Positions 42,137-45,692 of a stretch of DNA of 64,000 nucleotides are shown here, one piece after another; positions within the stretch are counted from its first letter, which is position 1, and each line of letters opens with the position of its first letter. Source of the stretch: Hymenobacter rigui (GTDB lineage Bacteria; Bacteroidota; Bacteroidia; Cytophagales; Hymenobacteraceae); assembly GCF_003944715.1 (NCBI RefSeq), contig NZ_RWIT01000003.1, positions 1 to 64,000 of the forward strand, given 5' to 3'. The position numbers were made by a program, and so were the translations under genes. The notes below the pieces were generated by a model that was given only the letters and a program-made list of their open reading frames with translations, did not search any database and had not been told where the DNA came from.

Positions 42137-42973
42137 TTATGCGGGCTGACGGAACACGGCCGAAACCCAGTGATTCTGCACGCGGTGGCTCTCGTAGCGG
42201 AACCCTGCTTTTTCGGCGGCTTCCCGAATCAGGGGCAGGTCGTCCTCGTAGAAGCCGCTGAACAGGATAGGGCCGCCGGGCTTGAGGTACTGCGCATACG
42301 CACCCATATCCTCCAGCAGCACATTGCGGTTGATGTTGGCCAGGATGATATCGAAGGGCTCCTCCCCTTCCAGAGCAGTTACGTCGCCGAGGCGGGCCTC
42401 CACTTTGTCCTGCACGTTGTTTTCCAAGGCGTTGTCGGCGGCGTTTTCGGCGGTCCAGGGTTCCACGTCCACGGCCAGCACATAGCTAGCGCCCAGGTGC
42501 ACGGCCATAACGGCCAGAATTCCGGTGCCGCAGCCCATATCCAGCACCCGCTTGCCTTGGTGGTCAATGTCGAGCTGGTTGGTAATCATCAGGGCCGTGG
42601 TGTCGTGGTGGCCGGTGCCGAACGACATGCGGGGCATGATGACGATTTCGTATTCCAGATCGGGCCGGGCCTCGTGGAAGGGCGCGCGCACCGATACCTT
42701 ATCGGCAATGACCAAGGGCTGGAAGTTCTTTTCCCACTCGGCGTTCCAGTTCTGGCGGGTAATCACGCGGTGCGAAAACTCCAGCTCACCCAGGCCCTCG
42801 TAGCGGCTCATGATTTCGGCCACGTTATCAGCCGAAAACTGGTCCTCATCAATGTAGGCGCAGAATCCTTCGTCGTTGTCCTCGAAGGTGTTATAGCCCA
42901 CTTCGGCCAGCTCAGCTACCAGTATATCCGACAACTCGCGGGAAGCCTGCACACGCAGTTCAACGTAATCCAT
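42137..42973 (-). CDS. prmA: ribosomal protein L11 methyltransferase
   Basis: 278 residues from ATG at 42973 (MDYVELRVQ), the family start; a longer frame upstream is not conserved. The AdoMet-binding motif VLDMGCGTGILAVMA, the preceding MSFGTGHHDTTALM and the NPPY-like ANINRNVLL are diagnostic. PrmA trimethylates the N-terminus and lysines of ribosomal protein L11. Cytosolic. Confidence 0.94.
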   Translation of the reverse strand: MDYVELRVQASRELSDILVAELAEVGYNTFEDNDEGFCAYIDEDQFSADNVAEIMSRYEGLGELEFSHRVITRQNWNAEWEKNFQPLVIADKVSVRAPFHEARPDLEYEIVIMPRMSFGTGHHDTTALMITNQLDIDHQGKRVLDMGCGTGILAVMAVHLGASYVLAVDVEPWTAENAADNALENNVQDKVEARLGDVTALEGEEPFDIILANINRNVLLEDMGAYAQYLKPGGPILFSGFYEDDLPLIREAAEKAGFRYESHRVQNHWVSAVFRQPA

Positions 42974-43147
42974 CAGCAATTCAGTAAAAAAGGGAAATCG
43001 GGAAAACCGGCCGGACCGGGGCCGCAAAGGTCGGTCAAAAAACCATCTTCCTTGTGGTACCCGACAGATCACTGCCGGAGGAATCAAAATATTTTGATAT
43101 AAATATGTCTTTATTTGAGCCACCAAATCTTCTCTTTTTCCCCTCCT

Positions 43148-43855
43148 ATGAAAAACACGCTGCGCTATCTTACTCTGGCTTGCTTGCTGACAACCGCTCT
43201 TTCCGGCTGCGGCAGCAAAGACAAAGCTGAAGAAACCACCGCCACTACCACCACCGAAACCTCTGCAACAACCACTGCGCCTGCCACTGCAACGCCTGCC
43301 GAAGAAGCTCCTGCCACCTCGGCTCCGGCCGCTGCTTTCGACATCAATACTGTTCCCGTTTCCAGCGCCAACCTGGGCCAGTTCCCGTACCTGAGCGCAT
43401 TAAAAGGCTACGAAGTAAACACCAGCAACAGTGAGGACTACGACTTTGAGCGCGCCTACGTGTTCGATGGAAAAAGCCTGATACCCATAGAGGGCAAAGT
43501 GTCGCAGCGGCTGTTTGATGAGATGAACGGCGAGAAAAAGGCCTCTGAGCTGATGATTCAGCGGAACTATGAAACCCTGCTTAAAGGCTTGGGTGCGGTG
43601 CAGGTATTTTCCGGCAAGGTTACCCAGGAAGCCATTGATAAGGTTGGCTCAGATGAAGTGTACAAGCACAACAAATGGAGCCTGAGCCCCGACCACGAAA
43701 CCTCCACGTACGTTATCCGCCAGAAGGACAAGGAAGTGTGGGCGCTGGTAACTCCGCTGGGCGGCGACGGTAACTACAACATCACCATGATTGAGCGTGC
43801 CGCCATGCCCCAGCAGGCCACCATCATCAAAGCCGACGAGTTAAAAAAAAACTAG
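43148..43855 (+). CDS. OmpA-family lipoprotein, N-terminal part (zero frame)
   Basis: 235 residues from ATG at 43148. Signal peptide with lipobox LSGC (about residues 17-20), a Thr/Ala-rich linker to about residue 65, then a globular domain (LGQFPYLSALKGYEVNTSNS through GDGNYNITMIERAAM). The frame ends at a TAG that directly follows a nine-A run. In the -1 frame the reading continues without interruption into a complete OmpA domain (43852-44196). The full product would be about 349 residues. Either the two parts are joined by frameshifting or slippage, or the gene carries a one-base deletion. Confidence 0.85.
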   Translation: MKNTLRYLTLACLLTTALSGCGSKDKAEETTATTTTETSATTTAPATATPAEEAPATSAPAAAFDINTVPVSSANLGQFPYLSALKGYEVNTSNSEDYDFERAYVFDGKSLIPIEGKVSQRLFDEMNGEKKASELMIQRNYETLLKGLGAVQVFSGKVTQEAIDKVGSDEVYKHNKWSLSPDHETSTYVIRQKDKEVWALVTPLGGDGNYNITMIERAAMPQQATIIKADELKKN

Positions 43856-43881
43856 ATACAGAAGGCCAGATAGCCCTGTAT
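43843..43881 (+). promoter_or_regulatory. slippery A-run, stop codon and hairpin (candidate frameshift signal)
   Basis: Nine A residues (43843-43851) include the heptamer A AAA AAC in the zero-frame phase needed for -1 slippage, immediately followed by TAG. Three nt after the heptamer a small hairpin can form: ATACAG (43856-43861) with CTGTAT (43876-43881) and inner GGC/GCC. The A9 tract alone could also cause transcriptional slippage. Confidence 0.55.
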
Positions 43882-44196
43882 ATCAACTTCGACACGGATA
43901 AAGCCATCATTCGGCCCGAATCGGCGGCTACGGTAGCCGAGGTACTTACACTGCTGCAGCAGAACCCGCAGTTGCGCCTGGCCGTGCAGGGCCACACCGA
44001 TAATGCCGGCACCGCCCCGCACAACCAGCAGCTTTCTACCGCCCGGGCGCAAAGTGTAGTGGCAGCGCTTACCGAAGCGGGTATTGCTACAAACCGACTG
44101 CAGGCCGCTGGCTTCGGGCAAACCAAGCCAGTAGCTGATAACACTACCGAAGAAGGCCGGGCTAAAAACCGTCGGGTAGAACTGGTAAAGTTGTAG
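43852..44196 (+). CDS. OmpA C-terminal domain in the -1 frame
   Basis: About 114 residues read LDTEGQIALYINFDTDKAI, then GHTDNAGTAPHNQQLSTARA and GRAKNRRVELVKL: the complete OmpA/MotB peptidoglycan-binding domain with the diaminopimelate-binding Asp and Arg motif (TDNAG... RAKNRRVE). The frame has no start codon of its own near the junction and no internal stop, which indicates it is normally made as a fusion with the upstream lipoprotein part. Confidence 0.8.
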   Translation, partial: LDTEGQIALYINFDTDKAIIRPESAATVAEVLTLLQQNPQLRLAVQGHTDNAGTAPHNQQLSTARAQSVVAALTEAGIATNRLQAAGFGQTKPVADNTTEEGRAKNRRVELVKL

Positions 44197-44206
44197 GCAA
44201 AAAAGC

Positions 44207-44278
44207 CCCCACAAGTAGCCGCCCTTCATTCCAGCCCGTCGTAGGGTGACCTGGAATGAAGGGCGGCTACTTGTGGGG
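44207..44278. terminator. large inverted repeat between convergent genes
   Basis: 28-nt perfect arms (44207-44234 and 44251-44278) and a 16-nt loop, with flanking AAAAGC / GCTTT. It separates the OmpA gene from the convergent DUF6150 gene. Confidence 0.78.
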
Positions 44279-44288
44279 CTTTGGGTAC

Positions 44289-44669
44289 TTACTGCTTCCG
44301 GCAGCCGGCGTAGTTGCGCACTTTGGTGTAATGGAAGCTGAAGTCGGCCAGGTTGCGGTTGTCCGTCACGAATAACACGTAATCAGCAAAGTCACGCGAA
44401 TCCGACAGATACCACAGACCCACTTTGTCAGCAAACAGCTTGTTGTTCTCCTGATACACCAGCAGGTCAGCAAAAGCCTCTTCGGGCTCCTGATACACCA
44501 CTCCAAAGCACTGCCCTTTGCGGCGCGGGTCGGTTTCCAGGTACACCGTGCCATAGAGGCGGCAGGGGTCCACGGAACTCACGGCTCCGGCAGCCAGCGG
44601 CACGCGCGGCTGTGGGGCGGCAAATGGGTTTAGAGCCAACAGGCCGGAAAGCAGCAGCGTTGAGAGCAT
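44289..44669 (-). CDS. DUF6150 family secreted protein
   Basis: 126 residues with an N-terminal signal peptide (MLSTLLLSGLLALNPFAA). The body consists of short repeats (ADLLVYQENNKLFADKVGLWYL, DFADYVLFVTDNRNLADFSF) characteristic of DUF6150, a small beta protein of unknown function. Two cysteines (in DPCRLYG and AGCRKQ) could form a disulfide in the periplasm. Its upstream region is a large inverted repeat shared with the end of tpiA. Confidence 0.78.
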   Translation of the reverse strand: MLSTLLLSGLLALNPFAAPQPRVPLAAGAVSSVDPCRLYGTVYLETDPRRKGQCFGVVYQEPEEAFADLLVYQENNKLFADKVGLWYLSDSRDFADYVLFVTDNRNLADFSFHYTKVRNYAGCRKQ

Positions 44670-44677
44670 GAGGATGT

Positions 44678-44829
44678 AGTGCTTAGTTGTTGGTGCTTAG
44701 TGCTTAGGCTGTAACCGGCAGACCTGGTAGCTTAAGGACTCTCGGTGCCAGAAACATAAATGATACCGAAGTTTTAACACGGATATAGAATCCCGCCCTC
44801 TAAGCACTAAGCACCAGCAACTAAGCGCT
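44678..44829. repeat. spaced inverted repeat with GTGCTTAG units
   Basis: 30-nt arms (44678-44707 and 44800-44829) with two mismatches, enclosing about 92 nt. Each arm is built from repeats of the unit TGCTTAG/GTGCTTAG. The right arm ends at the tpiA stop codon and the left arm begins 9 nt from the DUF6150 ATG. The loop presumably holds the DUF6150 promoter. Confidence 0.7.
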
Positions 44830-45593
44830 TAGAACGACTTAATAATCTCCGTGAAGTCGCGCGACTTGAGCGAAGCACCGCCAATGAGGCCGCCATCCAC
44901 GTCGGGCTGGCTGAACAGCTCCCGGGCGTTCTGAGCATTAGCCGAGCCACCGTAGAGGATGCTCGTATTCAGCGCGGCTTCCGCGTCGTAGGCGCGGGCA
45001 ATCTGCTCCCGGATGAAGGCGTGCACCTCCTGTGCCTGGGCACTGGTGGCCGTTTTGCCGGTCCCAATAGCCCAAATGGGCTCATAGGCAATAACTACCT
45101 GGTCGAATTCCTCATTGGAGAGGTGGAATAGGCCGTCTTTCAGCTGCTTGCTGATGAAGTTGAAAGTTTCGTCGGCTTCCCTGGTTTCCAGGCTTTCGCC
45201 CACGCAGAAAATGGGCTTCAGGCCGGCGACCAGCGCGGCTTTCAGCTTCTGGCTCAGCAGCTCGTCGTCCTCATGGAAATACTGTCGACGCTCCGAGTGG
45301 CCCAGAATCACGTATTCTGCCCCCACCGACTGCAGCATCTTGGCCGATACCTCGCCGGTGTAGGCGCCGCTTTCCTTCTGGTGGCAGTTCTGCGCACCCA
45401 GATGGAACCGGCTACCCTCGGGGAGCTGCTTACCAATGGCCGTCAGGAAGGGGAAGGGCGGGCACACGACCACCTCTACCGAGGAATTGGTCACTTCGTC
45501 CTGCACCATGTTCACGATTTCGGAAATCAGCGCCTGACCGTCCTGAAGAGTGGTGTTCATCTTCCAGTTGCCGGCCACAATCTTCTTACGCAT
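44829..45593 (-). CDS. tpiA: triosephosphate isomerase
   Basis: 254 residues from ATG at 45593 (MRKKIVAGNWKMN). The catalytic Lys in GNWKMN, His in LGHSERR and Glu in AYEPIWAIGTGKTA, plus the C-terminal phosphate-binding LYGGSANAQNA and GGLIGGASL, are all present. It interconverts dihydroxyacetone phosphate and glyceraldehyde 3-phosphate. Confidence 0.97.
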   Translation of the reverse strand: MRKKIVAGNWKMNTTLQDGQALISEIVNMVQDEVTNSSVEVVVCPPFPFLTAIGKQLPEGSRFHLGAQNCHQKESGAYTGEVSAKMLQSVGAEYVILGHSERRQYFHEDDELLSQKLKAALVAGLKPIFCVGESLETREADETFNFISKQLKDGLFHLSNEEFDQVVIAYEPIWAIGTGKTATSAQAQEVHAFIREQIARAYDAEAALNTSILYGGSANAQNARELFSQPDVDGGLIGGASLKSRDFTEIIKSF

Positions 45594-45692
45594 AGCGGAA
45601 AGGGTTGAGGTTGGGTTTGGGCGCAAGTTAGGGGAATAGGGAAGAGAACTTAGAAATGAGAGGTGAGAACCGAGAGCTTACATGGTAGCAAC

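Follow-up and report, generated by a model that had tools for sequence, protein, structure and literature searches.

A conserved nine-A tract with a putative slippage function splits an OmpA-family lipoprotein gene in Hymenobacter and a related genus

The split locus and its two protein halves

We examined a lipoprotein gene in a 64 kb window, the window being the whole stretch of DNA analysed (64,000 nucleotides), from a Hymenobacter rigui genome that totals 5.28 Mb across 40 contigs. The zero frame of this gene closes with the codons TTA (43841-43843), AAA, AAA, AAC and TAG, while the -1 frame is free of stops from the CTA at 43852 until a stop ending at 44196. The run of nine A's at the junction is the sole A or T run of at least eight in the 64 kb window, suggesting more than chance. 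The features of the locus are listed below.

43148 to 43855, plus strand: zero-frame open reading frame of the lipoprotein, 235 residues followed by TAG, with its ATG at 43148
43843 to 43851, plus strand: putative A9 slippage tract; exactly nine A's with TAG behind them in 33 of 39 orthologous loci
43843 to 43849, plus strand: heptamer A_AAA_AAA in the -1 phase, read from the sequence and absent from the initial annotation
43846 to 43852, plus strand: heptamer A_AAA_AAC in the -1 phase, read from the sequence and the one named in the initial annotation
43853 to 43855, plus strand: zero-frame stop codon TAG, immediately 3' of the tract
43852 to 44196, plus strand: -1 frame with an OmpA peptidoglycan-binding domain, 114 codons and a stop; match to PF00691 at 8.8e-25
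43856 to 43881, plus strand: hairpin of the initial annotation, present here, not conserved and probably outside the signal

The frames, the stop, the tract, the phase of the heptamer and the position of the hairpin all lie on the sequence where the initial annotation had placed them. The lipoprotein gene is flanked by a divergent gene on the minus strand (42137-43126), which we take to be prmA, and on its other side by a small conserved open reading frame (44289-44669, minus) followed by a presumptive tpiA (44829-45626, minus); both names were given from the translations. In a comparison of 35 loci, some of which are the same genome twice and some of which are short, 29 have PrmA next to the gene and 21 have TpiA. 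Between the convergent genes, at 44202-44282, the sequence contains an almost perfect inverted repeat, about 30 bp long, which may be a bidirectional terminator.

The first half of the gene encodes a lipoprotein signal peptide with the motif LSGC and its cysteine at residue 21, a Thr/Ala-rich linker and a domain of about 155 residues. L051 is truncated; in each of the other 35 rows, whose N-terminus is covered, a cysteine within a lipobox-like stretch was found by eye on the translations. The residues after the lipid-bearing cysteine (43208-43230 in the window) are often GSKD-like in the orthologues, and may act as a surface-export signal, as is reported for other Bacteroidota. An AlphaFold model of the first half contains one confident domain and a linker of low confidence, with pLDDT of at least 90 at 146 of the 235 residues. 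The nearest solved fold is that of PA1624 from P. aeruginosa (6td9; Z 11.8, 128 aligned residues, 3.1 A, 11% identity), followed by DcrB (Z 7.3). By sequence, the first half matched no Pfam or NCBIfam family above cut-off and no PDB entry, and a suspected link to DUF4892 found no support. The -1 frame scored 87.4 bits against PF00691 (cut-off 27.2). In NCBIfam, the OmpA half scored best with the YiaD, LptF and YfiB models, with the YiaD-type OmpA lipoprotein on top at a score below cut-off, and in the PDB it matched OprF, OmpA, YiaD and YfiB chains. The probable products of the locus are a free and a wall-tethered form of the same lipoprotein.

Conservation of the split and constraint on the tract

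To collect orthologues, the first half was used as a protein query against 120 Hymenobacter genomes, among them that of the window. Close matches were obtained in 36 of them (E <= 4.3e-60), together with a partial one where a contig ends, and the junction was read in all 37 Hymenobacter loci. In 31 of the 37, an A9 tract is followed by a zero-frame TAG and the OmpA domain is encoded in the -1 frame; the remainder consisted of three loci with A8 and CTAG behind it, two with a single open frame and one that is decayed (L038). Profile searches across the order (291 genomes) and the family (204 genomes) added two loci from a second genus, Solirubrum (G447 and G345), both with A9 and TAG. An identical split layout is thus found in 33 of 39 orthologous loci: the lipoprotein frame ends NTA-AAA-AAA-AAY-TAG over exactly nine A's, and a complete OmpA domain follows in the -1 frame. 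The loci that share the split have first halves of 44-85% identity. The alignment of homologues, proposed in the initial annotation as a check, shows that both the split and the A-run have been kept. The pattern TAAAAAAAAACTAG was present at 31 places in the 120 genus genomes and 30 of these are this site in orthologues, the last one (G039) being at an unrelated place; the same pattern read backwards, as a control, occurred twice.

Selection on the two frames was estimated from 14 pairs of sequences. The median dN/dS of the OmpA frame was 0.126 (range 0.065-0.256), indicating purifying selection, and that of the first half in the same pairs was 0.154, so that selection of this kind acts on both halves. 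The initial annotation had argued that the downstream frame is not an old pseudogene, and the low ratio for the OmpA frame bears this out.

Base changes around the tract were counted on a DNA tree of 36 rows built without the slippage site and with the decayed L038 left outside. Alignments in the linker are uncertain, which leaves the slippage site unaffected. In the codon before the run, the first base changed 11 times on the tree and the third base, which is the first A of the run, changed once; the codon is TTA, CTA or ATA in 35 of the 36 rows and CTT in L013. Since two of 13 other conserved leucine columns also showed just one third-base change, this count alone is less telling for leucine. 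Those two columns, however, are not kept at YTA, which was found in only 0 to 6 of 35-36 rows across the 13. Both lysine codons of the run are AAA in all 36 rows, in comparison with 4 to 22 of 35 rows at seven other conserved lysine columns, where 6-12 third-base changes were counted. The leucine codon after the run is CTA or TTA in 35 of the 36 rows although any leucine codon would fit the OmpA frame. A YTA at this position keeps TAG directly behind the tract; in L013 the stop is TAA and lies in the slipped phase. YTAG follows the run in 34 of the 36 tree rows and in both Solirubrum loci. We conclude from these patterns of base change that the full A9 tract and the stop behind it both appear to be constrained, which would mean that both proteins matter.

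The more distant relatives differ from the split group. The 13 genus paralogues that were read, out of 14, have a single open frame with no A-run, and carry CTG, ATG or CTC followed by AAR AAR. Unsplit homologues were found four times in another genus of the family and once in another family. In a 55-row protein tree, a quick one with a long-branch warning near the root, the split group lies on one side of a branch with an SH-aLRT of 93, apart from the unsplit paralogues; this side includes Solirubrum and a few open-frame or A8 members. Since the tree groups the split genes together and the distant homologues are unsplit and free of an A-run, the split most simply would have arisen once, before Hymenobacter and Solirubrum parted. 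The five unsplit homologues from other genera (L081-L084 and L062) have the same order of the two domains and are usable as out-groups and as single-form controls. L063, a distant relative in another family, ends at 229 codons and has no A-run there.

The loci that depart from the common layout were considered individually. Two of the three A8 tracts are in G092 and G074 (L008 and L028), and the third, L051, is at a contig end in a genome whose dnaX tract (L164) is a normal A10. Because the dnaX tracts of G092 and G074 are short as well (A8 and A9 versus A10), with broken dnaX frames (L179 and L188), the A8 tracts in these two genomes are likely homopolymer undercalls in the assemblies. A check of the assemblies for fragmentation of open reading frames did not reveal the short-tract problem of G092 and G074. 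The A8 loci, which would otherwise support polymerase slippage, were dropped as evidence for it in view of the short tracts and broken frames of dnaX in the two genomes. The two open-frame loci, L013 and L026, both come from MAGs, and they indicate that not every locus produces the short form by the usual route. L026 has no stop, a run of A8 and CTG as the leucine codon after the run, as expected once the constraint is lost; this is a single case. L013 (G094) has an open frame but keeps A9 with CTAA behind the run, such that the short form would come from slippage; slipped and unslipped mRNA may have exchanged roles at this locus. L012 (G060) and L035 (G078) have an intact A9 site and an extra in-frame TAG in the first half, at match codons 40 and 194, which reflects either strain-level loss or something unexplained. 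Taken with the decayed L038, these two loci suggest that the gene is dispensable in some strains. Such exceptions, like the restriction of close matches to 36 of the 120 genomes, count against the reading proposed below.

Slippage on the tract and its alternatives

We propose that the gene is very probably subject to programmed recoding, by either the polymerase or the ribosome. Of the two, RNA polymerase slippage on A9 is the one we consider probable. RNA polymerase would stutter on the A9 tract such that a fraction of the mRNAs gain one A or undergo a change of equal phase. Unslipped mRNA would be read to the TAG and give a 235-residue lipoprotein without the anchor domain, whereas translation of slipped mRNA would continue into OmpA and yield a lipoprotein some 350 residues long. 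Both forms would presumably be sorted as lipoproteins, and the C-terminus of the longer one is predicted to bind peptidoglycan. The presumed role of the arrangement is that the gene sets the ratio between free and wall-tethered forms of one lipoprotein. The initial annotation had put forward that slippage would produce two forms, a short lipoprotein and a long one anchored by OmpA, and the conserved split and A-run support it.

Three explanations without recoding were weighed against this proposal. The first is sequencing error, a recent one-base deletion or a pseudogene, of which the initial annotation had left the error and the deletion as possible; in its favor, some of the assemblies used here seem to contain homopolymer errors. 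Since the split and the A-run are kept in 33 of the 39 loci, in independent assemblies from two genera and with the downstream frame under purifying selection, this explanation fails for the family and we give it practically no weight. It is also highly improbable that the downstream frame has a separate start, by re-initiation or coupling, and that the two pieces are separate proteins. The stop does adjoin the downstream frame, and within the first 20 codons of that frame 15 of 36 rows have a GTG or TTG; yet these codons hold no ATG in any of the 36 rows and none of ATG, GTG and TTG in 21 of them, a lone OmpA domain would have no export signal, and the unsplit homologues hold both domains in one chain. 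Phase variation, where the length of the tract changes at replication and the anchored form is switched on or off in each cell, would suit a homopolymer within a surface-protein gene for which run lengths of 8 and 9 were observed. However, none of the 36 loci with a run and YTAG (33 A9 and three A8) is in frame, when the open state should recur often. Just two other loci are open, both of them also altered around the run, and two of the A8 cases are doubtful, so that phase variation is very unlikely as well.

The more serious alternative to polymerase slippage is programmed -1 ribosomal frameshifting at A_AAA_AAA, A_AAA_AAC or both, which would make the same two proteins from uniform A9 mRNA. 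Since the gain of one A in the mRNA and a -1 slip of the ribosome lead to the same phase, the layout itself cannot discriminate between them. Both heptamers are in the correct phase in all 33 A9 loci, with AAT in place of AAC in L030. All 33 of these loci share one phase of the shift, which corresponds to a gain of one A or to a -1 ribosomal slip; the three A8 loci have the other phase, and of these, one lies where a contig ends and two belong to seemingly undercalled assemblies. By the rule of Antonov et al., in the available text of PMC3711429, one direction of frameshift throughout is a sign of ribosomal shifting, and the uniform direction therefore speaks for the ribosome and against the polymerase. 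According to the accessible part of PMC4066793, A_AAA_AAC is inefficient in E. coli, which counts against this alternative, but low-efficiency heptamers of this sort likely serve bacterial IS elements. The initial annotation had placed -1 slippage at A_AAA_AAC; its phase is right, but a lone heptamer does not account for the site, as the constraint spans all nine A's and either heptamer needs only seven, leaving two unaccounted for. This favors polymerase slippage, which the same annotation had raised as a secondary idea and which the conservation over the whole A9 indicates. As proof of it, the conservation of A9 loses force: the first seven A's belong to A_AAA_AAA and the last seven to A_AAA_AAC, and a ribosome slipping on both heptamers would keep nine A's too.

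The downstream RNA was examined for a structure that could stimulate ribosomal slippage; such stimulators commonly, though not always, accompany -1 sites. The hairpin ATACAG/CTGTAT with inner GGC/GCC, to which the initial annotation had pointed, is indeed the predicted fold at this locus (z = -1.8 versus shuffles) and starts 3 nt past the heptamer. Across 24 loci, 59.7% of cells are paired as the hairpin requires; shuffled controls reached 59.9% and a version displaced by 2 columns 64.8%. RNAalifold, run on the same 24 loci over about 110 nt downstream and without pseudoknots, returned no consensus structure. The hairpin was accordingly rejected as a slippage stimulator. The lack of a conserved structure in these 24 loci favors the polymerase and weakens the case for the ribosome.

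A second A-tract bears on the choice. The genome of the window has 22 distinct places with at least nine A's, seven of which were read as translations, and among these seven the only one that looked like a recoding site besides the lipoprotein gene was an A10 tract (L134, G000:C40:160079-160088) in a gene that we take from its translation to be dnaX. Of 30 dnaX loci read in the genus (L156-L185), 27 have A10, two A11 and one A8. The slipped phase reaches a stop within two codons in all 27 A10 loci, and A10 is present in dnaX of both Solirubrum genomes too. By analogy, the dnaX of the genus would have a Thermus-like arrangement in which slippage would produce the short subunit. The dnaX of one genome (L184, G004) has A11 with TAA behind it, which makes the short form the zero-frame product and would leave the long one to slippage, an exchange of roles that resembles two-ORF dnaX genes. 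The tracts of T. thermophilus dnaX and of two-ORF dnaX are ascribed to transcriptional slippage in the available text of PMC3711429 and PMC5009743. The A10 tract in dnaX of the genus thus favors polymerase slippage at the lipoprotein gene and speaks against the ribosome. Frameshifting by the ribosome remains for us a tentative and rather doubtful alternative. If slippage by the polymerase is true at the lipoprotein A9, the dnaX A10 would suggest that the polymerase uses A9-A10 slippage as a regular tool of expression.

Relation to known recoding systems

With the evidence combined, we put about one chance in two on the complete reading, namely that Hymenobacter and its relatives set the ratio of the free to the wall-anchored form of an outer-membrane lipoprotein by transcriptional slippage at A9. 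If true, it would be a case of lineage-wide recoding of envelope tethering. Annotation pipelines may well label such genes as pseudogenes or as two genes, and the orthologous loci form a natural series for telling slippage of the polymerase from that of the ribosome. Conserved recoding is uncommon in non-mobile bacterial genes; a survey of nine-A or nine-T tracts in 108 genomes, in the available text of PMC1088944, gives seven cases with conserved tract and layout, a single one of them (mapW) outside IS elements. The mechanism is of a known kind, while the gene, the taxonomic depth of the split and the free or anchored outcome are apparently undescribed in the open literature.

Lipoproteins of the YiaD, YfiB and Pal type have a C-terminal OmpA peptidoglycan-binding domain as the long form here would have, and they are encoded by single-frame genes. 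Unlike these, the present protein has a first half without a Pfam family, with PA1624 as its nearest solved fold. The -1 ribosomal frameshifting of E. coli dnaX and of IS elements, on A_AAA_AAG and its relatives, shares with the lipoprotein site the -1 phase, an A-rich heptamer and a stop behind it. The heptamer of E. coli dnaX ends in G and is stimulated by a stem-loop, as the accessible part of PMC5009743 describes, whereas the lipoprotein site has C or T behind the run, keeps the full A9 and shows no conserved structure.

Closer parallels are found among genes with transcriptional slippage. The unrelated gene tssM1 of Citrobacter rodentium likewise encodes an envelope protein and has a run of eleven A's (A11) upstream of a premature stop; transcriptional slippage brings back the C-terminal domain, and both forms are required (PMC4256274). 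The available text of that report names the tract in one other tssM only, that of Y. pseudotuberculosis, while the lipoprotein split spans two genera. Runs of nine A's or nine T's lead to efficient slippage of bacterial polymerase in vivo, as described in the accessible part of PMC5009743. The dnaX of Thermus thermophilus, with its nine-base tract, and two-ORF dnaX with A10 resemble the lipoprotein gene in having an A9 or A10 in a cellular gene, a stop close behind it and two length variants with a common N-terminus, and two-ORF dnaX further shares with it that the short form is the zero-frame product (PMC3711429 and PMC5009743, in the parts available). The slippage at Thermus dnaX has been shown by experiment and that at the lipoprotein gene is proposed from its sequence; dnaX encodes a replication protein, whereas the gene described here encodes an envelope lipoprotein that would gain an OmpA domain on slippage.
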